DNA of 64,000 nt from Nitrospiraceae bacterium (GTDB taxonomy: Bacteria; Nitrospirota; Nitrospiria; Nitrospirales; Nitrospiraceae). Location: the NCBI GenBank assembly GCA_013140715.1, contig JABFSG010000062.1, positions 1 through 64,000 of the forward strand, written 5' to 3'. Position numbers and translations under genes: made by a program. The notes beneath the pieces were generated by a model, which was not told where the DNA came from, did not search any database, and was given only the letters and a program-made list of their open reading frames with translations. Shown piece by piece: positions 24,121 to 40,048 of the stretch; positions within the stretch are counted from its first letter, which is position 1, and every line of letters begins with the position of its first letter.

Positions 24121-24456
24121 ACCCATCGCCTCCATGATCACAGACAAGGCCGAGCAATCCGGCACAGGATAAACGATCGCCGTACGAAGTGAAAGAGTGG
24201 GGAAACGATTCATGCGGATGCAGGGCGTCGCATCACCCGGTCGGCGTTGAGTCGGACATCATGCCCAATCTCAAGAGCCATGGCGCACCTAGAATTCAGG
24301 CCTCTCGCCCTGAAGATGCCGCTGCCTGCGTAGTTTGTCAGCCCTCCGCATTCTCAGCATCCTTCTGCCGCTGCCCAGCGTGCCATTCTGGATCGTTAGA
24401 CTAGGTTTTATACCACCGTCGGTTTTCTCCCGGTCATTCAACATTATGAATAATTC

Positions 24457-24499
24457 TTCACGATCCGTTCGCCGATCGTTCATGTGGCGGAGCTAGAGT
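24457..24499 (+). promoter_or_regulatory. OmpR/PhoB-type box A with -10
   Basis: Half-sites TTCAC (24457), TTCGC (24468) and TTCAT (24479) repeat every 11 bp. Exactly 10 bp after the third lies TAGAGT (24494-24499) as the -10. The zinc-ribbon gene starts 78 bp downstream. Same geometry as the boxes at 27987, 34465, 35554 and 39659. The remainder of the 457-bp gap to gpmA shows no gene. Confidence 0.65.
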
Positions 24500-24577
24500 G
24501 ACACCGCTGGCTCAAGGCATATCACGTTCTGCAGCCAAGGGCGCATCGCATCGAACCAGGTATAGGGAGGCTGGATC

Positions 24578-24880
24578 ATGGGACCGAGAATGGAAATGAA
24601 AGAGACGAAGTCGGTCGAAACTATGATCCATAATGGGATTGAACATGGTATTCGATTCCTCAGAGCCAGAGAGCAACTCTATACAAGATCTTGCGCTCGT
24701 TGCGCGGGCTTGCTCGTACAGGATTGGTGCTATGACTTGATTAACACCGGAGAACACAACGCCGAGGTCTTCCGTTGCGTGCAATGCGGGCATTGTGTCG
24801 ATCCTGTGATCCTGCGTAATCAAACCCGACTGCCGGTGGAACGCACGCCACTCAGGTCGATGCGCATTAATACTCCGTGA
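24578..24880 (+). CDS. Small zinc-ribbon protein
   Basis: 100 residues with a strong ribosome site (AGGGAGG). Two cysteine pairs, RSCARCAG and FRCVQCGHCVDPVILRN, form a probable zinc ribbon. Residues 1-35 are helical. A paralogue with the same C-terminal block (RCVQCGEIVDPVILRN) lies at 51904-52185, and a decayed copy lies near 34685. Possible roles are nucleic-acid or protein binding; none is proven. Transcription is likely from box A at 24457. Confidence 0.65.
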   Translation: MGPRMEMKETKSVETMIHNGIEHGIRFLRAREQLYTRSCARCAGLLVQDWCYDLINTGEHNAEVFRCVQCGHCVDPVILRNQTRLPVERTPLRSMRINTP

Positions 24881-24960
24881 CGACCGTCCTGCTGGGTCTA
24901 AGTGCATGATCGACAACAAGAGGCACTACAGGAGCACCGGCGTCGTGAAAGGAGAATGCA

Positions 24961-25917
24961 ATGAAGAACGGACATGAACAAGGGAACCTGTGGTCGATCG
25001 TGCTAGCCGGTGGCGACGGGGTGCGAAACAAACAGTTCATCCGACGTTGGCTCGGGCATGAGAAACCGAAGCAATACTGTGTCTTCGTCGGATCGCGCTC
25101 AATGTTCCAGCATACACTCGACCGCGCGGCCAGACCCACGCCCTGGGATCGAGTGGTCGTGGTCGCAGCCAGGCACCATCAGGCCGAAGTCTGGCCGCAA
25201 CTTGATGGACGACCCGCAGGCATGGTGTTGTTGCAACCGGAAAACGTAGACACGGCAGCCGGCATTTTTCTCCCACTCACCTATATCTTGGCTCGTGATC
25301 CACTGGCGACCGTGGTCATCTATCCATCGGATCACTTCATCTTCCCAGAAGATTCATTTCTATTAGCTGTGAATCGTGCAGTGCGGGGGAGCAATGGGCT
25401 GGGAGGCCGACCGGTTATGCTCGCTGCAAGACCTGACGAATTGGAACTGGAATACGGCTGGATCAAGCCGGGACACTGTCTGGAATTGACAGGGGAGACG
25501 GCCATTCACGCGGTAGAGACGTTCTTTGAAAAACCGGACGAGATCACTGCTCACGCAGCCAGGACCAACGGCGGCCTGTGGAATACGATGGTGCTTGCTG
25601 CGAAAGGAAGAAATCTCTGGAGCTTGGGACAAAAATGCTTTCCCGAGTTGATGGCACGCTTCGAACGGCTCAAAGAGGCAATCGACACCATCGGGGAACT
25701 GAGAGTGCTCGATGCGATCTATGACGCCATGCCTTGTCGGAACTTTTCCTCGCACCTGCTCGAATGCGTGCCGGAGCGATTGGCCGTCATGGAGATGCGC
25801 GATGTCTTCTGGAGTGATTGGGGCCACCCCAAGCGGATCACGGACATCTTGGACAAGCTCGGCAATCAAAGGGTTTCTGTAGGAGAACCCCTCCCTTTCG
25901 TTTACCAGGAGAGATAG
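24961..25917 (+). CDS. Sugar-nucleotide transferase (mannose-1-phosphate guanylyltransferase-like)
   Basis: 318 residues, with GAAAGGAG before the ATG. The nucleotidyltransferase signature reads LAGGDGVRN followed by KPKQYC, with VIYPSDHFI as the metal-binding aspartate region, FFEKP, and NTMVLAA near the sugar site. It has only the catalytic domain and no C-terminal isomerase cupin. It probably makes GDP-mannose or a related NDP-sugar, but the classic G-T-R-L-x-P loop is altered, so the substrate is uncertain. Located after the zinc-ribbon gene, possibly in the same transcript. Confidence 0.75.
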   Translation: MKNGHEQGNLWSIVLAGGDGVRNKQFIRRWLGHEKPKQYCVFVGSRSMFQHTLDRAARPTPWDRVVVVAARHHQAEVWPQLDGRPAGMVLLQPENVDTAAGIFLPLTYILARDPLATVVIYPSDHFIFPEDSFLLAVNRAVRGSNGLGGRPVMLAARPDELELEYGWIKPGHCLELTGETAIHAVETFFEKPDEITAHAARTNGGLWNTMVLAAKGRNLWSLGQKCFPELMARFERLKEAIDTIGELRVLDAIYDAMPCRNFSSHLLECVPERLAVMEMRDVFWSDWGHPKRITDILDKLGNQRVSVGEPLPFVYQER

Positions 25918-25946
25918 CCTTCTAGCAGGGCGTCGAGGGAGCATGC

Positions 25947-26665
25947 ATGTTGATTCAATCTACCAGGGCAGAGCCTATTGACGCGTTTATGGACCGGATT
26001 GAGAGAAATTATCGAGATTGCTCGGCTGTCGCCGTCGTCCTCAATTCGCAGCGAGAAATGAATAGTCTCTGGGAAGCGATCACGGCCGAGATTAATAAAG
26101 GGATTCCTTGGGCCCGGGTGTCGGTCAGCCTATACGACTATGAGGGCGATGGGTCGAGGTTCTATGTCATCGCTACAAGGTTGGCGCAGGTGGCGCTCCA
26201 ACGCAATACGGTGATTCCGCGTATCGGAAGCGGGATGGGATGGGCCTACGATCAGGGGACGTTCCATATCCGGCCAGATCTGCAACGAGTACAAGTTTTT
26301 CTGGAAGACCAATGGCAGGTGCAGGAGGGCCTCGGACGCATGAGCAATCGATCTTTCTGGCGGGAGACCAGTGCCTCGGCATTCTTAATTTCTCCAGTAT
26401 CAAGTCGGAGGTTCCCGACCCGGGGGATATCGATTTTTTGACGCGAGCGGCCATACGAATTGCCTGTGCGATCGATTATCTTCAGGCCTACGAACAGATC
26501 GATCGAGTGCAAAGCCTACTGGCCAAAGAAATCGACTATCTTATTGAAGAAATGAAACTTACGAAGAACAGCGACTCCTTGGTGGGAAAGAGGTTTGCCC
26601 TGCCTATCCCCACAAATCGTTCGCGAGACCAGACGAGAAGAGTTGAGCATGAATCAGATTGTTGA
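25947..26665 (+). pseudogene. Frameshifted GAF domain, remnant of an FhlA-type sigma-54 activator
   Basis: The first part (25947 to ~26335, frame 3) reads like the N-terminal half of a GAF domain. The rest of the same GAF domain continues in frame 2 (ILNFSSIKSEVPDPGDIDFLTRAAIRIACAIDYLQAYEQI). The frame change is near 26330. The end, SLLAKEIDYLIEEMKLTKNS followed by DSLVGKRFAL, is the linker into an AAA+ sigma-54 domain, which is then missing. So it is a frameshifted and truncated relative of the intact regulator at 49609. It overlaps the next gene start by 17 bp. Confidence 0.65.
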
Positions 26666-27605
26666 GTATGCGAAGCCGCGCATTCTAGAGCTGGCTCGAT
26701 TTGTGCTGTCCGAACTCGTCACGGAGGTCCTCAACCGATTGAGGGGGCCTCTGCAGGCGAAACATCTTATGGCCCAAACGTCTTTCTCTACCATAGCCGA
26801 TCATCTGCATGGCGATCGAGATCAGATCGGGCAGGTGCTTTTGAACGTCATAGACAACGCCATTTCGGCCTCTTCAATGGACGGATCGGCCATAGATATC
26901 AGGACACATGAGTCATTCCACCATGAACAGCCTGGCATTATGATCCGTATCAGAGATGCCGGTACAGGCATTCCATTCGAATTACTGTCCCGCGGCCATG
27001 AGCCATTTTTCAGCTCGAGAAAATCACATGGTGCTGGGTTAGGCATGACAATCTGCAAGAACATTATCGAGCGACATCATGGAGCAATCCAGCTGACGGG
27101 CACAGTTGAACTCGGCACCATCGTGAGTATTTGGCTGCCAGCCAATCAAGAGCCCCAGTTGACGACAGGCGACCAGAGGCGCGCCGACATCGTTGTGACC
27201 GACGATGAGCAGGTCACTCGTAAGGCCATCGTGAAACGCTTGACGCGGCAGGGTCATCACGCAGTGGGCTATGAATCCGGTGAAGCACTGCTGGTGGGGC
27301 TGCAGCACAGTATTCCGGATCTGGTGTTGCTCGATCTGAAGCTGCCGGGGCTCAGCGGTCTCGAGACGCTCAAATATGTGCGCCAGTTGGCGCCTGCCAC
27401 GCTTGTCGTCATGCTGACGGTCTATGGAACAATGCAGGATGCGGTGGAAGCAATGAAGCTGGGGGCCTACGACTTCACGATCAAGTCGGTGGATATGGAA
27501 AGACTTGATGCGGTGGTCGCGCGGGCACTGGATGTCTTGCGGCTCCGGCAACGCCTTGCAGACAAAACGTGCGACCTCTCAGTGTGGGGATTGGACAAAA
27601 CATGA
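26649..27605 (+). CDS. Histidine-kinase ATPase domain joined to a receiver domain (no phospho-acceptor domain)
   Basis: 318 residues from the ATG at 26649. HATPase marks are QVLLNVIDNAISA (N box), RDAGTGIPFEL (G1) and HGAGLGMTICKNIIERHHG (G2). A receiver domain follows: DIVVTDDEQ, LVLLDLKLPG with the acceptor Asp, and DFTIKSVD with the lysine. The HisKA dimerisation domain with its histidine is absent; the chain starts in the linker before the ATPase. The receiver stops where NtrC-type regulators continue into AAA+. It looks like a fusion of two broken genes and may not signal. Confidence 0.6.
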   Translation: MNQIVEYAKPRILELARFVLSELVTEVLNRLRGPLQAKHLMAQTSFSTIADHLHGDRDQIGQVLLNVIDNAISASSMDGSAIDIRTHESFHHEQPGIMIRIRDAGTGIPFELLSRGHEPFFSSRKSHGAGLGMTICKNIIERHHGAIQLTGTVELGTIVSIWLPANQEPQLTTGDQRRADIVVTDDEQVTRKAIVKRLTRQGHHAVGYESGEALLVGLQHSIPDLVLLDLKLPGLSGLETLKYVRQLAPATLVVMLTVYGTMQDAVEAMKLGAYDFTIKSVDMERLDAVVARALDVLRLRQRLADKTCDLSVWGLDKT

Positions 27606-27986
27606 CAGTGGGATGGAGAGGTGGACTGGTGATCACGCTGTCCTAAATGCCATGGGCCATAATTTGGATACGCACGCATGGGTCAAATTCATCCCATGTG
27701 GGGAGTCAGAACGAGAGAGTTTTCAACAACGAGAAGTATCACGATGACTGTTGCCTCGGCTTTGTTATGGAGAATCACTTTCCGACGATTGTCGAGACCA
27801 ATCCACATGCGACAAGGCTCCCCGAAAATTGACTCCCATCGCGCATGCCATGAGGTAGGCGCGCACCGGTTGTTGGACAACGTACTTCCTTTACCTCTTT
27901 CGAGGGACGAACGCCTAGAGTCGTCTGATTGGATAGGCCGGCTATCAGCATGGAAGATCCCGGCATTTAGAAATGATGAAGAAAAC

Positions 27987-28029
27987 TTCATCATCTATTC
28001 ATGATTCGTTCATGTGACGAGTTTACAGT
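27987..28029 (+). promoter_or_regulatory. OmpR/PhoB-type box B with -10
   Basis: TTCAT at 27987, 27998 and 28009 (three perfect half-sites, 11-bp period), then 10 bp, then TACAGT (28024-28029). It is the cleanest of the five boxes and drives the small ORF at 28049 and the RND operon. The surrounding 27606-28048 stretch shows no convincing gene. Confidence 0.72.
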
Positions 28030-28048
28030 GATGTCATGAGAGGTAACT

Positions 28049-28237
28049 ATGCATTGTACGCAAAATAACCGATATGCGGTGCCAGGCCAGCTCTCGGATC
28101 CCCATGGCATGACCGACATGCGGCGAAGATATGTGCGGGTTGCATTGTACCAACATCCAGGATCCAAGGAGATGCTGTCCGTACGTGGTGTCCAAATGAC
28201 AGAACATTACAGCGCTTTCGAAAGGCTTCGCGCATGA
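28049..28237 (+). CDS. Small leader ORF coupled to the RND pump
   Basis: 62 residues, with AGAGGTAAC before the ATG and only ~20 bp after the predicted -10 of box B. Its stop overlaps the ATG of the pump gene by 4 bp, which argues for translational coupling. The product is basic, has no membrane segment, and resembles nothing I know. It may be a small protein or simply a translated leader. Confidence 0.45.
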   Translation: MHCTQNNRYAVPGQLSDPHGMTDMRRRYVRVALYQHPGSKEMLSVRGVQMTEHYSAFERLRA

Positions 28238-31200
28238 ATCAGCTTGTCCTCACGGCCCTGCGAAGACCGTACACCTTCGTGGTATTGGCCATCCTCATTG
28301 TGCTGTTTGGGGTGATGGCCGTCGAAGAAGCACCGACTGACGTCTTTCCGGTTATCCAGATTCCTGTCAGCTCTATCGTCTGGATTTACGACGGGCTCAT
28401 GCCGGCGGATGTCGAAGGGCGCATCACCTATGTCTTTGAGCGTTTCCTGACCCAGACGGTTGAGGGCATCAAATACATTTGGAGTAATTCCATATTCGGC
28501 AACGCCATCATCAATGTGTATCTTGAGGACGGAGTCGACCTGGGTGGCAGCGAGGCCGATATCGCGGCGATTGCGCAGACGACGGTCAAGGCACTGCCGC
28601 CGGATATTAACGCGCCCATGGTCATGCGCCTGTTCCCATCCCAAGTGCCGGTGGCCACATTGCAAATCACCTCCGATTCGCACACACCGGCGGAGCTCTA
28701 TAATCTCTGTATTATGCGAATCCGACCCCTCCTGGTCACGATACCTGGCGCAATCCTGCCGCATCCCTACGGCGGCCAGGACATGCAGGTGATGGTCAAC
28801 CTCGATCAGCAGAAATTGCTCGCCCGTCACCTCACTCCGGCGGATATTCACCAGGCTCTCGACAGGCAGAATCTCGTGCTGCCGGGGGGGGACATCAAGA
28901 TCAAGTCAACCGACTGGATCGTCCTGACCAACTCGCAACCGCTGAAGATCGAGGACTTCGACGACATCCCGATCAAGAAGGAGGGCAATGCCTGGATCCA
29001 TCTGCGCGACGTCAGCGTGACGCGTCTCGCCGGCCGGGTGCAAACGAACGCCGTGGTGGTGGACGGCCAGCAGGCCGTCATCATCGTCGTGATGAAGAGC
29101 AGCGAGGCATCGACTCTGGAAGTGGTAGACGGGATCAAGAAGATTATCCCGCGCATCCAGGAGATCGTGCCACAGGGCGTGAAGGTAAAGCTCCTCATTG
29201 ACGCCTCGGGTTTCGTGAAACATGCGATCGAGGACGTCGTGCATGAAATGGTGATCGCCGCCGCGCTGGTCGGCATCATCGTGCTGCTGCTGCTCGGTTC
29301 CTGGCGTCCGACGGTCATCGTGATCACCTCGATCCCGCTCTCGATCCTCGCCTCGCTCATCTGCCTGCACATGCTCGGAGAGTCGATCAATGTCATGACC
29401 CTTGGCGGTTTGGCGTTGGCCGTCGGCATTCTCGTCGACAACGCAGCGGTCATGATCGAAAATATCGACACGCATCTCGAGACGGGTAAGCCGCTGGAAA
29501 CAGCGATCATCGACGCCGCGAATCAAATCGTTCTCCCGGTGTTCGTCGCCACGCTCGCCATTACGGTCGTGTGGGTCCCACTGTTCCATCTAAGCGGGCT
29601 CTCCGGCTGGGTGTTCCCCCCGATGGCAGAGGCGGTCATCTTCGCGATGGTTGCCTCTTTTATCCTGACGTACACGCTGGTGCCCACTATGGCGAAGTAT
29701 ATTCTGAAAGCTCACCACGCGCCGCACGCGTCTGCAGTCGATGGACAACCCGAAGCGAAACCGTCAACGAATATCTTCGCCCGCTTCCAACTGGGGTTCC
29801 AGCAACGCTTCGATCAGTTTCGTGAAGGCTACAATGCACAGCTCGAACAGGCGATCGCTCATCGCGTCCCTTTCGTCGTCGTCTCCTTCACCATTGCCGC
29901 AGGCTCCCTCGTCCTTTTTTATTTCAACGGGCGCGAGTTTTTCCCGGAAATCCGGTCAGGGATCTTGCAAATGCACATGCGCGCGCCGCTTGGCACACGT
30001 ATCGAGGCTGCCGCGCGTATCACGTCGCTGGTGGCGAAGGATGTCGAACGATTGCTGCCAGGCCAGGTCGCAGACGTCGTGAGCAATTGCGGCATACCGG
30101 TCGGGGCGCATAACCTGGCCTTCATTCCGACGCCGACGGTCGGCACCCAGGATTGCGACCTCACGATCGCATTGAAGAATGACAAGTCGCCGGTGTGGGA
30201 GTACCGAGAGACTCTCCGTAAGGGGTTGGTGGAACTCTATCCGGGGACCGAATTCACATTCCAGCCAGCGGATTTGACTGCAAAGATTCTGAATTTTGGC
30301 TCGCTTTCGCCGATCGACGTGCAGATTAACGGCCCGGACCTCTATGCCAATCATGCGTTTGCCCGTAAATTGGCCGGCAAGTTGCGACAGATCCCCGGCT
30401 CCAGCGACGTGGTGGTTCAGCAGCCGATGGGCATGCCGACCCTGCTCGCCGAATCCGACCGTAAGTTTGCGCTCGGCGTGAATCTTGACCAGACGGACTT
30501 CGGCAACAACGTGCTGGTGACCACCACCGGCAGCCAACAGATCGATCAGAAGTACTGGCTCGATCGCACGACCGGCATGTCCTACCGAATCAATGTCTAC
30601 ACGCCGCAGGCGCAGCTTACGAGCATAAAGGATCTTAACATTGTCCCGGTGAGTCGGGAGCAGACCGAATCCTCTGAAGGTCTGAGGAATGTGCAGCTCC
30701 TCGGCAATTTGGCGAAGATTTCAGCAATCGGCACGCCCGGTGCGATCACGCACGGAAATATCATGCCGCTGATCGACGTCTATGTGTCCGCTGAGGGGCG
30801 GGATCTCAACTCCGTTCTGGAAGAGGTCGAGGCGGTTATCCACACCATGGAGGCGGATCTCCCCCGGGGCGCGACGATCGAAATTCGCGGCCAAGCCGAA
30901 GTGATGCGCGCCGCGCTTCGTGAAATGCTGTTCGGTCTCATCGCTGCGGTCGTGTTGGTGTATCTGCTGCTCGTCGTCAACTTCCAATCCTGGGTCGATC
31001 CCTTCATCATCATTACGGCCTTGCCCGGCGCGCTGGCGGGCATCGCAGTCGCATTGTTCGTAACCCATACGAATATCTCCGTGCCGGCGCTGATGGGCGC
31101 GATCATGACCATGGGCGCGGCGACGGCCAATTCGATCCTGCTCGTGTCCTACGCCCGCGAGCGGATTGCCGTCCATGGCGACGCAATACGCGCTGCGGTG

Positions 31201-31419
31201 GAGGCCGGAACGGCTCGTATTCGTCCGGTACTCATGACCGCCGCGGCCATGATCATCGGCATGCTTCCGATGTCGATGGCGAATTCCCAGAATGCGCCAC
31301 TGGGCCGCGCGGTCATGGGCGGCTTACTGATCGCCACCCTGTTTACTCTGTATTTTGTGCCCTGTATGTACGCCATGATTTACAATCGGCGAACCGCTCG
31401 CCAAGAGGAGCATGCCTGA
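28234..31419 (+). CDS. RND-family inner-membrane efflux pump
   Basis: 1061 residues with the RND layout: a membrane helix near the start, large periplasmic loops (~35-330 and ~560-860) and two groups of helices. It uses the proton gradient to export substrates through the adaptor and outer-membrane channel encoded next. Departures from AcrB: the fourth-helix DD pair is VDNA (Asp-Asn), and the tenth-helix lysine region reads GAATANSILLVSYARERI, with no lysine. This marks a separate RND clade. The substrate is unknown; the last 8 bp overlap the adaptor gene. Confidence 0.88.
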   Translation: MNQLVLTALRRPYTFVVLAILIVLFGVMAVEEAPTDVFPVIQIPVSSIVWIYDGLMPADVEGRITYVFERFLTQTVEGIKYIWSNSIFGNAIINVYLEDGVDLGGSEADIAAIAQTTVKALPPDINAPMVMRLFPSQVPVATLQITSDSHTPAELYNLCIMRIRPLLVTIPGAILPHPYGGQDMQVMVNLDQQKLLARHLTPADIHQALDRQNLVLPGGDIKIKSTDWIVLTNSQPLKIEDFDDIPIKKEGNAWIHLRDVSVTRLAGRVQTNAVVVDGQQAVIIVVMKSSEASTLEVVDGIKKIIPRIQEIVPQGVKVKLLIDASGFVKHAIEDVVHEMVIAAALVGIIVLLLLGSWRPTVIVITSIPLSILASLICLHMLGESINVMTLGGLALAVGILVDNAAVMIENIDTHLETGKPLETAIIDAANQIVLPVFVATLAITVVWVPLFHLSGLSGWVFPPMAEAVIFAMVASFILTYTLVPTMAKYILKAHHAPHASAVDGQPEAKPSTNIFARFQLGFQQRFDQFREGYNAQLEQAIAHRVPFVVVSFTIAAGSLVLFYFNGREFFPEIRSGILQMHMRAPLGTRIEAAARITSLVAKDVERLLPGQVADVVSNCGIPVGAHNLAFIPTPTVGTQDCDLTIALKNDKSPVWEYRETLRKGLVELYPGTEFTFQPADLTAKILNFGSLSPIDVQINGPDLYANHAFARKLAGKLRQIPGSSDVVVQQPMGMPTLLAESDRKFALGVNLDQTDFGNNVLVTTTGSQQIDQKYWLDRTTGMSYRINVYTPQAQLTSIKDLNIVPVSREQTESSEGLRNVQLLGNLAKISAIGTPGAITHGNIMPLIDVYVSAEGRDLNSVLEEVEAVIHTMEADLPRGATIEIRGQAEVMRAALREMLFGLIAAVVLVYLLLVVNFQSWVDPFIIITALPGALAGIAVALFVTHTNISVPALMGAIMTMGAATANSILLVSYARERIAVHGDAIRAAVEAGTARIRPVLMTAAAMIIGMLPMSMANSQNAPLGRAVMGGLLIATLFTLYFVPCMYAMIYNRRTARQEEHA

Positions 31420-32635
31420 TATGAATAGTCTGCGTGGGAAGGGGCTGGTGATTCTGGCAGTTGTCCTGTGCGTGGTGTATTTCGGCTACCGATACTATGT
31501 AGACGGGATCGAAGCGGCAGTTCTGCACGAGAACACTGTTGACCACTCTATCCAGAGGGTGACCGTGATCAACCCAAAGCTGTTGCCGCCGGAAGAGACG
31601 ATTACGCTGCCTGGAAATATTCAGGCCTGGTATGAGGCGCAGATTTACGCGCAGGTTTCCGGCTATGTGAAGATGTGGTACACGGATTACGGCGCGCTCG
31701 TGAAGCAGGGCGATGTCCTTGCTGAAATCAACGCGCCGGCTCTCGACGCCCAATACGCCCAAGCCAAGGCCGATCTGGAAAGCGAGCGTGCCAAGAATGT
31801 CCTAGCCGAACTGACCGCGAAACGCTACGTGGCGATGCGTGAGCACCAGGCGGTCTCAGAACAGGCGATCTCGGTACAGGTGCAAGAGGCGAAAGCCCAA
31901 GCGGCGAAAGTCAACGCTGCGGAGCAGAACGTCAAGAACTTCGAGGCACTGATCAAGTTCAAGACGATCGTCGCACCCTTTGACGGTACGGTGATCGCGC
32001 GGAATATCAACGTCGGAAACTACGTCAATAAAGAGTCTAGCTCTGGAGAAGGGAGTTCTGGCGCAATCAGGGATCTCTTCACCGTGGCCGACGTCAGTAA
32101 GCTGCGTCTTTTCGTGAGCGTACCTGAGGCGTTCGGACCCTTTCTCCAGCCAGGCTTGACGGCCGACGTGACGGTGCCACAACTGCCCAATCGTCATTTC
32201 ACCGGTAAGTTTCTGACCGTCGCTCGTGGATTCGACGTCAGCACACGTACGGCCATCACGGTCTTCCAGATTGACAACGAGGACGGAGCACTTTGGCCCG
32301 GCTCTTATGCAACAGTCCATCTCACGGCTCCGGTCGACAGGAACATTCTCACCGTTCCAACCACGACGTTGGTCTTCCAGGAGCACGGCTCGGAAATCGC
32401 CATTGTGAGCGAGGACGATCGCGTGCATTTCAAAAAAATCGCCGTGAACAGAGTCCTCGACAATGCCATCGAGATTACGGAGGGGACTGTCGCCAGCGAC
32501 CGCATTATCAACAACCCCAGCGCCGCGTTATTAGAAGGCGACAAGGTGAACATCGTCACGGCCGCACCCGGATATGAGATTGCAGATGAACCTCCGCCAA
32601 AGGATTCCTCGACCACAAAGGCCACGTCCAAATGA
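31412..32635 (+). CDS. RND periplasmic adaptor (membrane-fusion protein)
   Basis: 407 residues. One N-terminal membrane anchor (GLVILAVVLCVVYFGYRYYV). Then a split lipoyl domain (QIYAQVSGYVKMWYTDYGALVKQG and TIVAPFDGTVIARNINVGNYV), an alpha-hairpin (~115-185) and beta-barrel/membrane-proximal parts. It links the pump at 28234 to the channel at 32632. The start overlaps the pump by 8 bp and the stop overlaps the channel gene (ATGA). No lipobox. Confidence 0.9.
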   Translation: MPDMNSLRGKGLVILAVVLCVVYFGYRYYVDGIEAAVLHENTVDHSIQRVTVINPKLLPPEETITLPGNIQAWYEAQIYAQVSGYVKMWYTDYGALVKQGDVLAEINAPALDAQYAQAKADLESERAKNVLAELTAKRYVAMREHQAVSEQAISVQVQEAKAQAAKVNAAEQNVKNFEALIKFKTIVAPFDGTVIARNINVGNYVNKESSSGEGSSGAIRDLFTVADVSKLRLFVSVPEAFGPFLQPGLTADVTVPQLPNRHFTGKFLTVARGFDVSTRTAITVFQIDNEDGALWPGSYATVHLTAPVDRNILTVPTTTLVFQEHGSEIAIVSEDDRVHFKKIAVNRVLDNAIEITEGTVASDRIINNPSAALLEGDKVNIVTAAPGYEIADEPPPKDSSTTKATSK

Positions 32636-34248
32636 CAGGTGAGCTCTTACGATCGAGAGTGGAGGTGTCGTGTACTAGCCGCGCCACAGCATGGTGCGCT
32701 GGTCTTGTGTTGCTGGCGTTTACCCTGCCGAGTTGCAGTTGGTTCCCGGCAGTTGATTTGGCCCCCACGTATACTCCACCTGAATATGTGGTCCCTCCCT
32801 CATGGCATGGGTCCAGTCCTTTTGTGGAGGCGAAGCCTGCCGATAGCGAACTCCGTCAGGATTGGTGGAAGCTCTACGACGATCCGGTGCTGAATGGGCT
32901 CATCGAGCAGGGAGTCGCGGCGAATCCGGATCTGCAAGCAGCCGCGGAGCGTTTCGTGCAGGCCCGTTATGTGATGATGAAGGCTCGGGCGCAATACCTT
33001 CCTCAGGTTGGCCTCGACTTCGGTGCCTCCCATAATAGGCAATCGTTCGAAAGGTTATTTCGACCTGAGAATAGTCCCCTTCAGCAAGGTACCGTGGATC
33101 TTGGAGGAATCGCTGCCTGGGAGCCTGATTTCTGGTCGGCGCTCCGCAATGCGACTCGTGTTGAGATTTACCGCGCAGAAGAGCGAGCGGCTGACTTTGG
33201 GCTCGCGCGTCTCAGCCTGCAGGCTGAGATTGCGGCAGATTATTTCACGCTACGCGGTTACGATGCGCAAGTGGCGATCTATAGCCAATCGATCACTCTC
33301 TACAAACAGTCGCTCAAGCTCGTTGAGAAGCAGTTTGCCGGCAAGATTGCGTCGGCTCTCGACGTGGCCCGCGTCGAATCTCTGCTGTTCAGCACTGAGA
33401 CGAAATTGGCCCAGATTCAAGGCCAGCGCCAAGTGACGGAACAGGCGATTGCCATCATCCTCAATATGGCACCGGGCAGTTTTACGGTCGAACCGGTCGA
33501 TGATCTTCGAGTGGCGACGTTCACGATTCCAGCGACGATGCCCTCCACCCTGCTTGAGCGCCGACCCGACATCGCCGGGATGGAACGCCGGATGGCGGAG
33601 GCGAACCGCGTCATTGGCATCGCCCGCGCCGCCTTTTTCCCCAATGTGTCGTTCCGTCTCGGCGGCGGGTATGAGGATGGCGGTTTCAATCTCTTCAAGC
33701 TGGTCAATAGTTTCTGGTCCTATGGTTCAACCGTTTCGCTGCCGATCTTCCAGGGCGGATATCGTCGGGCCCAATTGCAACAATCCTGGTCAGCCTATCG
33801 CGAAACGGAAGATCAATACCGTTCGATGGTGCTTAACGCCTTTCGCGAGGTCGAGAACAACTTGAGCTTGACGAATCGCCTGACGGTCGCAGTCAACCGG
33901 CAGGACGCCGCTGTCGGGGCCAATTTCAGAACGCAAAACATGACTATGGAACTCTATCGGGGTGGTCTGGCTTCCAGCCTCGAACTCATTTATGCGCAGC
34001 TCAATACACTGACGGCACGCATCGACCTTGTCGTAATCAAGGTCGACTTGCTCAAATCTTCAGTTTCTCTCATCCGCGCGCTCGGCGGAGGGTGGAATCG
34101 TAATCAATTGCCCAAGGACGATCAGATCCAACCGTTCGACACATTCCAATTTGTCAACCTTGCCAAACCGAAGCCTATTGGGGGGATCGATGTCAATGCA
34201 GGCAATAACTGGGTGAATAATGATCTGACCAAGCCTTCTGTTCCTTGA
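32632..34248 (+). CDS. Outer-membrane channel of RND system (TolC/NodT-like)
   Basis: 538 residues. The signal region carries a lipobox-like LPSC near residue 37. Two outer-membrane-efflux repeats follow, with YTPPEYVVPPSWHG, LIEQGVAANPDLQAAAERF, LLERRPDIAGMERRMAEANRVIGIARAAFFP and the second copy of the helical repeat; these are typical of NodT-type lipoprotein channels. It completes the tripartite pump with the two genes upstream. No terminator is clear after the stop. Confidence 0.9.
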   Translation: MTGELLRSRVEVSCTSRATAWCAGLVLLAFTLPSCSWFPAVDLAPTYTPPEYVVPPSWHGSSPFVEAKPADSELRQDWWKLYDDPVLNGLIEQGVAANPDLQAAAERFVQARYVMMKARAQYLPQVGLDFGASHNRQSFERLFRPENSPLQQGTVDLGGIAAWEPDFWSALRNATRVEIYRAEERAADFGLARLSLQAEIAADYFTLRGYDAQVAIYSQSITLYKQSLKLVEKQFAGKIASALDVARVESLLFSTETKLAQIQGQRQVTEQAIAIILNMAPGSFTVEPVDDLRVATFTIPATMPSTLLERRPDIAGMERRMAEANRVIGIARAAFFPNVSFRLGGGYEDGGFNLFKLVNSFWSYGSTVSLPIFQGGYRRAQLQQSWSAYRETEDQYRSMVLNAFREVENNLSLTNRLTVAVNRQDAAVGANFRTQNMTMELYRGGLASSLELIYAQLNTLTARIDLVVIKVDLLKSSVSLIRALGGGWNRNQLPKDDQIQPFDTFQFVNLAKPKPIGGIDVNAGNNWVNNDLTKPSVP

Positions 34249-34464
34249 CCGTACTTCCTTAGAAACGTTCCTATCGATGAGAAGCATCTGCTGTCTGTTT
34301 CCTGATCGGATAATGAAACTCAGCGCATCCGGTACAAGGAAGATGGCAGATCGCTGGACTGTCGAGGGAACGCCCTGAAGTCTGCCGCTTGCCACGCCGC
34401 ATAGCATCCTGAACTAGCCACCTATCCGCACTGTCGGTAACGCACAATAATTCATGAAGAACTT

Positions 34465-34507
34465 CGCATGATCCGTTCATCGATCGATCATGTAACACGG
34501 CTACAGT
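34465..34507 (+). promoter_or_regulatory. OmpR/PhoB-type box C with -10
   Basis: Half-sites CGCAT (34465), TTCAT (34476) and ATCAT (34487), 11 bp apart, then 10 bp, then TACAGT (34502-34507). No intact gene follows closely; the DNA downstream is a decayed zinc-ribbon copy. The promoter may be a relic or serve a short transcript. Confidence 0.6.
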
Positions 34508-34684
34508 GATACTAACGACTGGAGAGACAGTGCCCTATTGAAGTCAAAAGTCCATCACGTCAAACCAAAACCCACAACCGAACGGCTGACTCACAAATCG
34601 AAGAGCTGAGTCAACAGCAGCGGTGCGAAACGGAGCTGTGGCAGAAGGGGGGGGCGAATATGATTTTTGGGACGCTTTCTGCGA

Positions 34685-34760
34685 GCGAATAGATCTACAA
34701 GGTCCCGTGCTCGTTGGGCGGACCTGCTCGTGGCCGAGTGGACATCCCTGCACACAGTGG
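34685..34760 (+). pseudogene. Decayed copy of the zinc-ribbon gene
   Basis: The stretch around ATCTACAAGG TCCCGTGCTC up to CTCGTGGCCGAGTGG aligns by eye with the R-S-C-A-R-C-A-G-L-L region of the gene at 24578 (TCTATACAAGATCTTGCGCTC onward). It translates as RSRARWADLLVAEW, so both zinc cysteines are lost, and no long frame is left. The rest of 34249-35107 holds only short frames, such as a 45-codon one at 34812-34949, which I do not call. Confidence 0.45.
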
Positions 34761-35107
34761 TGCGAATTGGTACGTAGAAAAGTCGGCGCATAGGACAAAG
34801 AAGAACAGATCATGGGCAACGGAATTGCCGATGCAAGCGAAGTCGCTTTGAACATGCTTCAACGATATGAAATGTTCACGATGGAAGTCCTCATTATCAG
34901 CTGGACAAATTTTAGTTGGTACAACTATTTCTCGCAGTCGACCAGCTGAGCCAAAAGAGCCTACTCATGCTCCTTCGAGTCGGCATGAGTTATCTAATCC
35001 ACCGGATGGGCCAGACATTGACCTTCGGCCAGGACCGACATCATGAAGAACTGTCCGTTTCTTATTGGTGATGAATCAGGGATGTCCAAAATGGTGACTG
35101 CATCCAT

Positions 35108-35215
35108 GTGAGACTGAAACCCGTGCATACCACCCTCTTTTTTTGCTTCGTCGTCGTCTCTGGGCTCCTTTTCTTAGGGGTCATGACGTGGCTCGTGGTG
35201 CGGAAATGGAGGTAA
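35108..35215 (+). CDS. Tiny putative membrane protein
   Basis: 35 residues from a GTG at 35108. One hydrophobic helix (TTLFFCFVVVSGLLFLGVMTWLV in outline) with basic residues at both ends (VRLK and RKWR). No clear ribosome site, so it is tentative. It lies in a region otherwise lacking genes. Confidence 0.3.
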   Translation: MRLKPVHTTLFFCFVVVSGLLFLGVMTWLVVRKWR

Positions 35216-35350
35216 GGAGGTGCCTGGAAAGTGTTCCGCAATACGGCTGGCCCGTCGGTCCGATCCCCTCGACAACCAGATGGGCAGAGTGAATAGTTTC
35301 GGCGCAAGGAGGCCTTCGACCAAGTCTCTCACTCTGGAGGGAGGGGAGAC

Positions 35351-35476
35351 TTGAAAAAAAAGATTACGTGCCGGGGTCGGATGACTGCGGGACAGGTGCA
35401 CGCAGGAATTGTCACCCTGGTGACCACACTCTTATTCTCGGGTCCTTCTTCCGGCGCTTATCGCTCGTTGAGGTAA
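35351..35476 (+). CDS. Tiny putative exported or membrane peptide
   Basis: 41 residues from a TTG at 35351 with a purine-rich ribosome site (GGAGGGAGGGGAG). Basic start MKKKITCRGR and a hydrophobic stretch AGIVTLVTTLLFSG. No family recognised. The start codon is weak and the call is tentative. Confidence 0.3.
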   Translation: MKKKITCRGRMTAGQVHAGIVTLVTTLLFSGPSSGAYRSLR

Positions 35477-35553
35477 ACCTTCCATCACATCGCGGGTCAT
35501 GACCAGCCCTTGGCTCTGTGTTTTCCATCCATTCATGGTTTGATGAAGACTTT

Positions 35554-35596
35554 TTCATAGTTCCTTCATGGTTCGATCATGTGACGGAGCTACAGT
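35554..35596 (+). promoter_or_regulatory. OmpR/PhoB-type box D with -10
   Basis: TTCAT (35554), TTCAT (35565) and ATCAT (35576), 11 bp apart, then GTGACGGAGC (10 bp), then TACAGT (35591-35596). It is followed by a leader that resembles the one before the zinc-ribbon gene at 24578, including the ATGGGAC start. It likely drives the small ORF at 35677 and the DUF2934 gene. Confidence 0.68.
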
Positions 35597-35676
35597 GCCA
35601 CCAAAGGGTTGAGGATCTGACGACGGGCTGAAGGCAAAAGCTCATCGGTTCGAACCTATAACTGGGATCCAGGCGC

Positions 35677-35871
35677 ATGGGACTGAACATGGAAGCAAAT
35701 GCGTCGATGAGTGTTTGGAGCTATGAACCAGAGCGAAAATGGACGCGGTATTGTTTCCTCGCATCCAGCGGGCAATTCTATTCGGACTCCTGGGCTGCAT
35801 CTCACCGAGGGAGGCAGGATCTGTTGCCCTTTCCGCTCTCACTGCGTCAATGGGTGAACCCGTGCAAGTGA
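35677..35871 (+). CDS. Small ORF downstream of box D
   Basis: 64 residues. The first bases (ATGGGACTGAACATGGAAGC) resemble the start of the zinc-ribbon gene at 24578 (ATGGGACCGAGAATGGAAAT), but the rest of the protein does not. It probably arose from a copied promoter-leader unit. Moderate ribosome site only. Function not assigned. Confidence 0.35.
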   Translation: MGLNMEANASMSVWSYEPERKWTRYCFLASSGQFYSDSWAASHRGRQDLLPFPLSLRQWVNPCK

Positions 35872-35916
35872 ATGCGTCTCTCTGAACGGACATCTGATGA
35901 AAGAAGGGGAATCACT

Positions 35917-36201
35917 ATGAAGTCGCAGAAAGCACAAGCAGCAAGGGGAGGGAAGTCAAACTCGATTGTGCGTGACCAACCAGGCGCAGCCGCTCCGAAC
36001 AGCAAACCCGAGAGACCAGTGTTCGACGATCTGCATCGGCGCATTACCATACGGGCTTATGAGTTGTATGTCCAGCGAGGCTGCCGAGAAGGCTGTGCCG
36101 TGGAGGATTGGCTGGATGCAGAGCGGGAAATTACGAGCCATGCATCATTTTCAGCCTACTATCAGATAGGTGCTGCAGATGGTTTGCGAGAGTCGCCCTA
36201 G
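35917..36201 (+). CDS. DUF2934-domain protein
   Basis: 94 residues from the ATG at 35917, with GAAGGGGAA before it. After a basic, disordered ~40-residue start comes RITIRAYELYVQRGCREGCA followed by VEDWLDAEREI, the DUF2934 helical motif (A-Y-x-L-Y, G, D-W-x-x-A-E). Such proteins are small and cytosolic, with no known activity. Likely expressed from box D. Confidence 0.75.
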   Translation: MKSQKAQAARGGKSNSIVRDQPGAAAPNSKPERPVFDDLHRRITIRAYELYVQRGCREGCAVEDWLDAEREITSHASFSAYYQIGAADGLRESP

Positions 36202-36313
36202 CCCGTGTCGTGATTGCTACAACAACTGCACCGAAACGGGGACCCTCGTTTGTCAAAACGAAATCATGCACTGGCGATTATCTCGGTTCAGATAACGGAT
36301 ATCGTGCCACGGA

Positions 36314-36772
36314 ATGAAGCGTGGGAGAACACCGTGGACAGGAGTGATCGGAGAACCCTACATCCCGACACCCGCACAAGAGGAGGACATCCTGCTGACC
36401 ATTGAAACATGCATCGATGTCAACGTGTCGGTGCAGACTGCTCATGAGCAATGGTGGAAGTTTGAAAAATCACCCGAGTTGATGGAAGGCGTGAATCAGG
36501 GCAAGCACATCAATACCTGCCAGCTGCATGGGAAAACCAATATCGCAGGCGAGAGGGTGGTGACCTTCCACCCGATCTCGGATGTCATGTCAACGGTGGT
36601 CGTGCAATGCGTCTACCCCTCTGAGGAGGTCGTCGGGCAGGTGGAAGATGGAATGACCCTGTCGGCCGTACGTATGCAGAAAGAGCTGAAACGATTCAAA
36701 ACATTCGTGGAATCATCTACGCAAGTGAAACGAGACTGGCTCGCTTGCCTGCCGTACCACGCATTTTTTTAG
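36314..36772 (+). CDS. SRPBCC (polyketide-cyclase/dehydrase-like) protein with internal deletion
   Basis: 152 residues. The SRPBCC start is recognisable (LLTIETCIDVNVSVQTAHEQ then WWKFEKSPELMEGV) and so is the end (VVTFHPISDVMSTVVVQ and LKRFKTFVESS). Between them HGKTNIAGE runs straight into RVVTFHPISD. In related proteins about 30 residues with the central strands, usually W-x-A-E-I-T-E and R-I-A-W-R-S, lie there. The deletion keeps the frame but should break the fold. The gene may be a pseudogene. Confidence 0.6.
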   Translation: MKRGRTPWTGVIGEPYIPTPAQEEDILLTIETCIDVNVSVQTAHEQWWKFEKSPELMEGVNQGKHINTCQLHGKTNIAGERVVTFHPISDVMSTVVVQCVYPSEEVVGQVEDGMTLSAVRMQKELKRFKTFVESSTQVKRDWLACLPYHAFF

Positions 36773-37079
36773 CCGTCCTGCTGGCGTGCCTGTGGCGCGG
36801 AGCAATCGACGAAAATATAAGACGATCGACAACCTCAAGAAGTTTATGAAACTCTGAAGCTCAGGCGGTACGGTGTCTTGACGCAAGCAGTGAGGATGCT
36901 CTAGGGGAGGTGGTTCCCGATATCGAGAAACCCCACGGGCTGAAGCATTAACCAAGATCGTGATGGCCTCGTGGACCTCTGATCGGTTAGAAAGCATGAT
37001 CGTGCTTATCGATCTGAATCGGCACATAGGTCAGCAATGGAAAATGATTGTGTATTGAGGGATTCGGGGTCTTGGTGAT

Positions 37080-38519
37080 CTAGGCCGGAATTGTCTGGTG
37101 AGTTGAAGCCGGCAGGCGCAGGGTAAAGCTCGAACCCTTGTCGACTTGGCTTGTAACGGAGATTGATCCGCCGTGGGCTTCTACGATTTCTTTGACGATG
37201 GCGAGCCCAAGTCCGGTGCCACCGGAATCCTTCGCCCTACCCCGATCAGTTCGATAAAACCGCTCGAAGAGATGAGGAAGATGTTCTGGCTCAATTCCAT
37301 GGCCCGTGTCCTCGACAGTCAGAGCGATTCCTTCCCCGGCTGTCTGCAAGCGGACGGTTACGGCTCCACCAGATGGAGTATAACGAAGCGCATTGTCGAG
37401 TAGATTAATCAACGCTTGTTTGAGCCACTGTGCGTCGCCGAGGACAGGCGGGACCGATTGGGATTCGAATGACAATTTGATTCGGCATTCATCGAAAAGG
37501 ATAGTCAGTTCAGCCACGACATCGTGAATCAACGGTTCTAGGGCGAGCGGCGCGAGGTATACAGGAGGCTTGTCGCCAGAGAATTTCGCGAGGGTTAACA
37601 GAGCACGTTTCAGTGCAATGAGTCGTCCCACTTGCTCAAGGTTATTGATAACCACGTCGCGATATTCTTCAGCAGTCCTGGCTTTGAGGAGCGCGACCTC
37701 CAGATTCCCCTGCATGATGGTCAAGGGCGTACGTAACTCGTGAGCGGCATGATCGATGAAGCGCCGTTGGCTTTCAACGTTGCGTTGGAACCGGTCCATC
37801 ACGGAGTTAAACGCCTGCGCCAGCTGTAGCAACTCCTGATAAGGGGATTCCAGCGTCAATCGTTTCCCGAGTTCAACTTCGGAAATCGTTTCGGCGCTCA
37901 CGCTCAGCATCGCGATCGGCGTCAATACTTTTTGTGCGAGCCATCGACTGCCTATCCAGGCGACGAGAAGCATGGCTCCAGATCCAATGGTCAGCAAGAT
38001 CAAAAGACTCTTCATCGTGTTTCGGTAACGGCGCAGGGATGTTTCGGCCTGCAAGACGTACCGCAGCTGACCGTAGCGGGGAATGGAAATATATAAATGT
38101 CGAGCAGTCGTACCATCAGTTGCCTGGGCAGATTCATACACAGGGTTTCCGCTCCGGACCTGTTCGATCACCCAACCGGCAACCGACTGCTGTGGCACTG
38201 TATCAGACACTCTCCAGACGAGCCGGCCATCAGACGAGTAGATTCGGATGGAATGTGTGACCCCCTGGAATCCCTGCTGTTCTGTGTTGCGCTGAATCCT
38301 CTCGGTAGCTAACGAACGCTCCTCATTGGATTCTTCGAGGATGTTGGGATGTTGCTCAACGATCTTGGCGATCGTCTCCGCCAACGCCATGAGTCGGCCG
38401 TCCACATAACGGTCCAACAAGACCTCGACCCCGACATAGATTAGGACAGAAAAAGCGAGGAGAATTCCTGCCATCAGTATGACGGCAGACTTACTGGTTA
38501 CATCTCGGAGAGACTTCAT
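37080..38519 (-). CDS. Two-component sensor histidine kinase
   Basis: 479 residues. Two membrane helices (about 12-33 and 170-192) bracket a ~135-residue periplasmic sensor. HAMP follows (~190-245), then HisKA with HAAHELRTPLT (phospho-acceptor His), then HATPase with LINLLDNALRYTP (N), VEDTGHGIEPEHLPHLFERF (G1/F) and GGTGLGLAIVKEIV (G2). The ATG overlaps the regulator stop by 4 bp. The signal is unknown. The 307 bp between this gene end and the SRPBCC gene hold no supported feature. Confidence 0.93.
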   Translation of the reverse strand: MKSLRDVTSKSAVILMAGILLAFSVLIYVGVEVLLDRYVDGRLMALAETIAKIVEQHPNILEESNEERSLATERIQRNTEQQGFQGVTHSIRIYSSDGRLVWRVSDTVPQQSVAGWVIEQVRSGNPVYESAQATDGTTARHLYISIPRYGQLRYVLQAETSLRRYRNTMKSLLILLTIGSGAMLLVAWIGSRWLAQKVLTPIAMLSVSAETISEVELGKRLTLESPYQELLQLAQAFNSVMDRFQRNVESQRRFIDHAAHELRTPLTIMQGNLEVALLKARTAEEYRDVVINNLEQVGRLIALKRALLTLAKFSGDKPPVYLAPLALEPLIHDVVAELTILFDECRIKLSFESQSVPPVLGDAQWLKQALINLLDNALRYTPSGGAVTVRLQTAGEGIALTVEDTGHGIEPEHLPHLFERFYRTDRGRAKDSGGTGLGLAIVKEIVEAHGGSISVTSQVDKGSSFTLRLPASTHQTIPA

Positions 38520-39199
38520 GCGACCGGTTCCGGTTCCTCCAGCATATACCCGGCGCCGCGCACCGTGGCGATTAGCGGAGGTAGAAAGTCTCGGTCAATC
38601 TTCGCGCGTAGGGCCTTGATATGGGCATCCACAATGTTCGTCATGGGATCATAGCTGATGTCCCACACGTGTTCGATGATCGCCGTTCTCGTCAATACCC
38701 GATTCTTGTTTCGCAAGAGGAATTCAAGCAGGGCATATTCTTTATTGGTCAGCGTGATCTCTCGTCCGGCCCGCCAGACGCGGCGAGAAACCTGATCCAG
38801 TTTGAGATCGGCGGCTTTCAGGTGGGCCAACGGTTGTGGACCTCCCCGGCGCAACAAGGCACGGATTCGAGCCAGCAATTCTGCAAAGGCGAAGGGCTTC
38901 GGTAGAAATTGGTCCGCACCGGTATCGAAACCGGAGACCTTCGCCTCCACGGTGTTCTGTGCAGTCAACAGCAACACCGGCGTCACATTTCCCTTGGCAC
39001 GAACACGGCGGCAGAGCGTGAGCCCGTCAAGCTTGGGTAACATGATGTCGAGGATTAATAGATCGTACGGATTTGTCAAAGCCAATTGCAGTCCTTCTTC
39101 GCCATCAGCTGCAAAGTCCACTGCATACCGTTCTTCCTTCAGCCCTTTGCGGATAAAATGTGCAAGATCCAGATCGTCTTCAACCAGTAGTATTCGCAT
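38516..39199 (-). CDS. OmpR-family response regulator
   Basis: 227 residues from the ATG at 39199, which has AAGGGAG before it. Receiver domain: MRILLVEDDLDLAHFIRKGL, LLILDIMLPKLDGL (acceptor Asp) and FLPKPFAF (Lys). Winged-helix DNA-binding domain (about 130-225): ITLTNKEYALLEFLLRNKNR and VDAHIKALRAKI. Proteins of this type bind direct repeats with an 11-bp period, exactly what is found at its own promoter (39659-39701) and at four others here. The open frame extends 64 codons upstream to a well-placed ATG at 39391. Confidence 0.94.
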   Translation of the reverse strand: MRILLVEDDLDLAHFIRKGLKEERYAVDFAADGEEGLQLALTNPYDLLILDIMLPKLDGLTLCRRVRAKGNVTPVLLLTAQNTVEAKVSGFDTGADQFLPKPFAFAELLARIRALLRRGGPQPLAHLKAADLKLDQVSRRVWRAGREITLTNKEYALLEFLLRNKNRVLTRTAIIEHVWDISYDPMTNIVDAHIKALRAKIDRDFLPPLIATVRGAGYMLEEPEPVA

Positions 39200-39207
39200 G
39201 GGCTCCC

Positions 39208-39444
39208 TTATCCCCAAGTCATTATTAACCCGCAGGGACCACGATCCATCACCGACTGTGCGGAGTTCTTCGCCGCCCCTATTATGACATCTCTCAACTG
39301 GCCGGTCACTCTGGCGACAGTCGGTCGGGGTTTCGGCGGACTTTTGGGAATGGGTTCGCTCGGCAGAGAGTTGCTTCTCCATGTTATCCATTTACTTTCC
39401 TCCGTAACGTAGGCATTGCGTTCGTTTGCCATAAATCTCATCAA
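39208..39444 (-). CDS. Possible small protein ahead of the response regulator
   Basis: 78 residues, ending 8 bp before the regulator start. Composition is not unusual (…VTGQLRDVIIGAAKNSAQSV…) but no family is recognised. A competing frame from 39391, with a stronger ribosome site (GGAGG), runs into the regulator itself. Only one of the two can be right, or neither. Confidence 0.25.
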   Translation of the reverse strand: MMRFMANERNAYVTEESKWITWRSNSLPSEPIPKSPPKPRPTVARVTGQLRDVIIGAAKNSAQSVMDRGPCGLIMTWG

Positions 39445-39458
39445 GGGATCATTCCCTT
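39443..39458. promoter_or_regulatory. 16-bp palindrome in the regulator leader
   Basis: AAGGGA-TCAT-TCCCTT is a perfect inverted repeat in the transcribed leader between box E and the regulator gene. It could be an operator for another factor or an RNA hairpin. Confidence 0.35.
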
Positions 39459-39658
39459 AAATCCATCTCCGTACACATTCCGGGGCCTCAACCATATAGG
39501 ATGTCAAGATTTCCGCAACGTACATGGTATCAATCGAGGCGATGGTTATCGTGACGTTCCCCCTTCCGCCATTATCCATCGGCGGCTTGGACCGACGGGA
39601 TGGCTGGGTTTATTCGCAAGAACGGTTTCAGGTTCCACTCATCGCAATATTTATGGGT

Positions 39659-39701
39659 AGTGTAACGACTAAGTGTGAATGGGTGATGAAGCAACCGTGA
39701 A
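39659..39701 (-). promoter_or_regulatory. OmpR/PhoB-type box E with -10, facing the two-component genes
   Basis: Read on the minus strand: TTCAC (39701-39697), TTCAT (39690-39686) and TTCAC (39679-39675), 11 bp apart, then 10 bp, then TACACT (39664-39659). The spacing is identical to boxes A-D. It points towards the response regulator and kinase and suggests autoregulation, with a ~450-bp leader. No gene is supported in 39702-40048. Confidence 0.62.
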
Positions 39702-40048
39702 GAAATTCTAATAATTGGTGTTGGACTCCGTCAGCGGATGCCGGGCAGACGGTCAACATCGTTTGGGTGGAGTGCCGCATTCCCCAATCTCGGAGCTCAG
39801 GTCGCAATGTACTGAAGCAGTCTTAAGGGGTGTCTCTGCGCCTCACTATGCATGCGCGATACAAGCTGATTGGTTGTTTCGGTTAGCGATATTCACCGTG
39901 TTTCTTGGCGTACGATCTGAGTGAGGATTTCAATGATCTTCGGATGTCGATCAAGATGCGCAAAGCCAGGGGCGAAGTGGAATGAAGCTCGAACCGATTG
40001 ACTTCCCTCGCAATTTCACAAAGAAACATAGGCGTGACATTTTCCAGG

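Follow-up and report, generated by a model that had tools for sequence, protein, structure and literature searches.

A 64,000-nucleotide stretch of contig JABFSG010000062.1 from a Nitrospiraceae bacterium (hereafter the window) contains five promoters that share one operator-like box. These five sites are very probably the operators of the OmpR-family response regulator encoded at 38516–39199 on the minus strand, which is paired with the sensor histidine kinase encoded at 37080–38519 on the same strand. The sequence and spacing of the boxes, their specificity within the genome, their conservation, and their linkage to the regulator are established by computation. We infer that the regulator binds the boxes in a phosphorylation-dependent manner and activates transcription from them. 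In the best reading of the sequence, the pair would form an autoregulated two-component system of the CusR/CopR/AgrR type that activates promoters without a −35 element.

The direct part of the box is identical in its layout at all five sites. It consists of three TTCAT-like half-sites with an exact 11-bp period, followed by 10 bp and one of the hexamers TACAGT, TAGAGT, or TACACT. An earlier note on this DNA had described the sites in this way, and all five sequences lie where it had placed them. The three direct half-sites, the 10-bp spacing, and the −10 element of that description hold, but a fourth half-site had been overlooked. Immediately upstream of the first TTCAT, an alignment of 58 distinct sites reveals a strongly conserved inverted half-site, ATGAA (consensus ATGAAGAATTC). 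The full operator reads ATGAA-N6-TTCAY-N6-TTCAY-N6-WTCAY-N10-TAnnnT and is thus built from four half-sites at an exact 11-bp pitch, the first one reversed, and a −10 element at a fixed distance. Because ATGAA is TTCAT reversed, the box opens with an inverted pair, which in the best sites forms the perfect palindrome ATGAAGAATTCTTCAT and is followed by two more direct half-sites. Across the 58 sites the half-sites and the −10 are constant, and the spacers vary.

Box 1 (24446–24499, plus strand) illustrates the arrangement, with ATGAA at 24446–24450, direct half-sites starting at 24457, 24468, and 24479, and the −10 hexamer TAGAGT at 24494–24499. It scores 57.8 bits with a matrix that was trained without this genome and is assigned as the promoter of genes for a CxxC protein and a nucleotidyltransferase. 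Box 2 (27976–28029, plus strand) is the predicted promoter of an RND exporter operon, and box 4 (35543–35596, plus strand) that of a short open reading frame (ORF) and a DUF2934 gene. Box 3 (34454–34507, plus strand) is probably a relic, since its first direct half-site is degenerate (CGCAT) and the CxxC gene copy downstream of it has decayed. Box 5 (39659–39712, minus strand) belongs to P1, the predicted promoter of the regulator–kinase operon, and lies about 450 nt before the regulator start, with its −10 TACACT at 39664–39659. The inverted half-site takes on the variant form ATTAG here, which may imply weaker autoregulation. The variant is kept at the regulator’s own promoter in five genomes, and box 5 is conserved in G023, G006, G043, G100, and G045.

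The box is highly specific within the 3.58-Mb genome. A bare TTCAT triple without the −10 was too loose, with 89 genome matches compared to 19 for the reversed control, so the full pattern with the −10 was adopted (three half-sites, 10 bp, TASAST, at most three mismatches; reversed pattern as control). In the genome scan that the earlier note had suggested, this pattern matches seven times, whereas 0.46 matches are expected by composition and the reversed control gives none. The seven matches are the five window sites plus C83:3342 and C83:5487, both of which flank paralogous OmpR-type regulators on contig C83. All seven are therefore located on C10 or C83 beside OmpR-type regulators, in a genome with a total of five proteins that carry this DNA-binding domain. 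With the matrix trained without this genome, the five sites reach 37.6–59.2 bits, and the next best position in the window scores −5.7. The maximum over 100 dinucleotide shuffles of the window was at most 1.9 bits, here with a matrix that included the window sites. A weak match at G020:C17:202021 (12.5 bits) was dismissed as noise.

Across the order Nitrospirales, the box accompanies the regulator, either preceding its gene or operon or following immediately after the kinase gene. The scan of related genomes, likewise suggested beforehand, finds it in front of the regulator’s orthologue in G023, G006, G043, G045, and G100, the last of which belongs to another genus. Among 32 genomes of the genus, with the box called at no more than two mismatches, the box occurs together with a regulator of either this or the C83 type in 16, both are absent from 13, and three are discordant (Fisher 4e-6, uncorrected for kinship and with classes defined after the data were seen). 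Two of the three discordant genomes are fragmented assemblies. Order-wide, a relaxed pattern occurs in 111 of 236 genomes and the reversed control in none. In the regulator-bearing genomes of the order, 72 of the 168 sites listed are no more than 16 kb away from the regulator, where about 1.4 are expected, and 66 of these 72 are on the same strand.

Spacing counts on loci that were selected by the pattern are circular for the −10, and loci selected by the regulator were used for this reason. Twenty regions were fetched around the regulator, mostly from genomes without a strict-motif match near it, and 15 of them harbor a box of at least 31 bits, as a rule right after the kinase gene or ahead of the operon. 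In all 16 distinct boxes from regulator-selected loci, a TA follows exactly 10 bp past the last half-site, and in 11 it is part of a full TAnnnT. At the sequence level, these 16 boxes show the hallmarks of a PhoB-type operator, namely 11-bp direct repeats at the −35 position and a fixed distance to the −10. The earlier claim of an OmpR/PhoB-type operator 10 bp before the −10 that is bound by the neighboring regulator fits all of the comparative evidence (genome specificity, conservation, co-occurrence, and regulator-selected loci).

The regulator is a 227-residue protein with a receiver domain (Response_reg, PF00072, 96.5 bits) and a C-terminal winged helix (Trans_reg_C, PF00486, 91.4 bits). 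The residues of the phosphorylation site, D8, D9, D51, T79, and K101, are present as read from the sequence. The kinase (479 residues) contains HisKA and HATPase_c domains, and its gene overlaps that of the regulator by 4 bp. In what is presumably its periplasmic part (residues 36–170), the kinase has no Cys, three His, and two Met, which gives no hint of a metal site. Membership in the PhoB and CreB families was rejected, as the model scores of 179.2 and 155.5 bits fall below the cut-offs of 296.2 and 273, respectively. The features that mark the CusR/CopR/CzcR subfamily are found: an inverted repeat at 11-bp half-site spacing, predicted autoregulation, and a linked RND efflux system. Recognition helices were compared, and none of their residues distinguishes the box-linked regulators from the rest. 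The leader of the regulator gene additionally contains a sigma70-like motif, GTGACC-N17-CATAAT (39281–39309, minus strand), that is a candidate basal promoter, P2. Its hexamers are kept in five genomes, one of another genus, and its position inside the longest open frame favors a regulator start at 39199 over one at 39391.

The proposed mechanism starts with the phosphorylated regulator, which would bind the inverted pair head to head. The array would then extend head to tail until it reaches the half-site that occupies the −35 position. As this last half-site is placed 10 bp before TAnnnT, the array would recruit sigma70 RNA polymerase, with the regulator acting as a class II activator. Through box 5 the system would be subject to positive autoregulation, and the likely P2 near the regulator start would provide basal expression. 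Besides its own operon, the regulator would turn on the RND exporter, the CxxC protein together with the sugar-nucleotidyltransferase, and small accessory genes.

With its inverted fourth half-site, the box is more like a CusR/CopR/AgrR-type operator to which direct repeats have been added than like a pure PhoB box. In promoters controlled by PhoB, the PHO box replaces the −35 element before the −10. The Nitrospira box shares with the PHO box of PhoB/PhoP the 11-nt direct repeat units and a regulator of the OmpR/PhoB family; the PHO box differs in that it has no inverted half-site, has the core CTGTCAT in E. coli and GTTCACC in Streptomyces, and answers to phosphate (PMC4415409). The CreB/BlrA tag TTCACN6TTCAC has nearly the same half-site and the same 11-bp pitch but contains two direct half-sites and no inverted one (PMC4689548). 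The closest precedent is the box of AgrR from Cupriavidus metallidurans, a CopR-type regulator of the OmpR family that recognizes the inverted core ATKACA-N4-TGTMAT, has in-phase direct half-site repeats at some operators, and is reported to be a positively autoregulated type II activator (PMC7380067). Both boxes combine an inverted core of the same 11-bp centre-to-centre spacing with direct repeats in phase. The extra direct repeats of AgrR are, however, imperfect and confined to some operators, whereas the Nitrospira box has two regular promoter-side direct repeats, a TTCAT half-site, and a fixed spacing to the −10. The E. coli CusR box AAAATGACAAnnTTGTCATTTT and the Pseudomonas CusR/CopR/CzcR boxes follow ATGAC-N6-GTCAT, which is the geometry of ATGAA-N6-TTCAT, and these systems are also autoregulated (as predicted here) and control an efflux system (PMC11195947). 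In contrast to the Nitrospira box, they are described as single palindromes without a direct-repeat extension, and their metal signals are known (PMC11195947).

Several observations weigh against the assignment of the boxes to this regulator or to this type of system. G010 carries the regulator (68% identical), and no box was found in its locus. Conversely, the larger genomes of genus g24 have many further boxes that are not near this regulator. The direct part of the box resembles the CreB tag TTCACN6TTCAC (PMC4689548), so the half-site sequence alone cannot name the regulator. The family scores point to heavy-metal regulators yet stay under the cut-offs: the best NCBIfam model of the regulator is cztR_silR_copR (TIGR01387) with 249.6 bits against 279.2, and that of the kinase is cztS_silS_copS with 261.5 bits against 292.55. 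Finally, the two C83 boxes lack the inverted half-site; they probably belong to the paralogues, and cross-binding with the boxes of this regulator may occur.

It is unlikely that the boxes are operators of another OmpR-type regulator, such as a C83 paralogue, the C90 paralogue, or a PhoB, with the neighbor being incidental or one of several proteins that share them. The C83 boxes do adjoin two OmpR-type regulators that are 44–46% identical to this one, and CusR, CopR, and CzcR of Pseudomonas share one box (PMC11195947). The missing inverted half-site sets the C83 boxes apart, however, and almost every genome of the genus carries the C90 type (about 53% identical), whereas genomes without this regulator and the C83 type mostly have no box. 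The boxes moreover follow this regulator in regulator-selected loci across families f1, f2, and f3. Slightly less probable still is a repressor operator, at which the regulator would block polymerase in the −35/−10 region instead of activating it. The last half-site overlaps the −35 position, which by itself is compatible with repression, but there is no recognizable −35 to block, and the rigid spacing to the −10 is as expected for a sigma contact. From sites at this position, PhoB and AgrR activate transcription (PMC4415409, PMC7380067). Least of all is it to be expected that the similarity mainly reflects copying, in which a promoter–gene cassette was duplicated within the locus and the repeats were kept by descent rather than function. 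In favor of copying, the leaders of boxes 1, 3, and 4 resemble one another and those in other genomes, and the gene behind box 3 has decayed. Against this, the boxes of the regulator and of the RND operon share their spacing despite unrelated flanks, half-sites and −10 are fixed over the 58 distinct sites while the spacers vary, and the identical geometry occurs in unrelated phyla.

Beyond the order, exact matches to the four half-sites and TAnnnT were found in 68 stretches among 84,980 species genomes, where 0.01–0.6 are expected by composition. Many of them are from Nitrospirota; others are from Campylobacterota, Opitutales, Anaerolineaceae, Lambdaproteobacteria, and further groups. A full OmpR-type regulator is encoded in the same stretch (within 8 kb) in 26 of the 68, compared to about 1 to 5 percent expected per stretch. 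In Campylobacterota, Chloroflexi, and others, exact boxes adjoin related CopR/CusR-type regulators, and in Sulfurovum the box separates the regulator gene from a divergently transcribed target. The viral contigs scanned contained no exact box. In two Nitrospira genomes the box directly precedes a copy of nxrA, which encodes subunit A of nitrite oxidoreductase (full-length match to PDB 7b04): L087:8683–8864 in G041 and L084:3304–3503 in G004. The G041 box consists of one inverted and five direct in-phase half-sites, and the G004 copy of nxrA appears frameshifted. Near the other nxrA copies among the loci fetched, no box was found.

A tentative extension, which we regard as possible rather than probable, is that one inverted and three direct half-sites define a distinct and widespread operator class. 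A CopR/CusR-type array of four protomers in mixed orientation would be positioned by the palindrome, and its last protomer would contact sigma70. In some Nitrospira, this operator would have captured an nxrA copy (with up to five direct half-sites) and put core energy metabolism under a stress-type system. The openly licensed literature searched holds no description of this operator for Nitrospira. New are the regular four-half-site form at a fixed promoter position, its spread through the order and other phyla, and its use in Nitrospira; the occurrence of the site beside relatives of this regulator in many bacteria points to a common but little-described way of gene activation. In hard-to-grow nitrifiers, few regulator–target pairs can be assigned, and the specificity of the box allows the regulon to be deduced from the sequences of hundreds of genomes. 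The boxes before the nxrA copies open a part of nitrite-oxidation control to direct testing. Operators with three direct half-sites, with one inverted and three direct, and with one inverted and five direct form a natural series for testing how head-to-head and head-to-tail binding are combined in the OmpR family.

In the window, the unit behind box 1 comprises the 100-residue CxxC protein (24578–24880, plus strand), which has no Pfam match, and a mannose-1-phosphate guanylyltransferase-like protein (24961–25917, plus strand; NTP_transferase, PF00483). Homologues of the former are found behind boxes in L065, L072, L056, L052, L068, and L132; those of the latter in L144, L138, L141, L142, L193, and others, which makes it a recurrent member of the regulon. 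Behind box 2 follow, all on the plus strand, the RND efflux pump subunit (28234–31419), the periplasmic adaptor (31412–32635; TIGR01730, above cut-off), and the NodT-family outer membrane efflux subunit (32632–34248; TIGR01845, above cut-off). A box also lies upstream of each of the two further orthologous RND operons found, G006:C177 and G043:C217. The gene behind box 3 is a decayed copy of the CxxC gene behind box 1; the alignment shows a premature stop in it, along with a small deletion. The short ORF beside box 4 resembles a diverged copy of the same gene, and the nearest Pfam-recognized gene there encodes the DUF2934 protein (35872–36201, plus strand; PF11154). A structured RNA leader was considered in view of the similar leaders behind several boxes and was rejected, as their likeness is accounted for by a small coding gene that they share and by decayed copies of it.

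Three of the four accessory transcripts that the earlier note had counted are retained (the RND operon, the CxxC–nucleotidyltransferase unit, and the small DUF2934 unit), while the fourth is the probable relic. Its picture of a self-contained regulon needs a similar correction, since the boxes are not strictly confined to the locus and two more stand beside the paralogous regulators on C83. That contig (L074:684–6058) encodes a kinase and receiver-only proteins besides the two OmpR-type regulators, with boxes of three direct half-sites in between, and may constitute a second small system with a related box. Boxes of about 29 bits also precede a 683-residue kinase-like gene in L146 and L149 (G122 and G156), away from this regulator, and possibly belong to other regulators in the larger genomes of their genus. 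In G007, a box lies directly before a gene that, as read from its sequence and with no NCBIfam match, resembles an alpha-type carbonic anhydrase (L083:6663–7750). Between boxes 1 and 2, at 25947–27605, frame changes disrupt a GAF-containing ORF, behind which lies an ORF with HATPase_c and receiver domains; an intact homologue of the first part, a sigma54-type activator, is encoded at L085:9782–11359.

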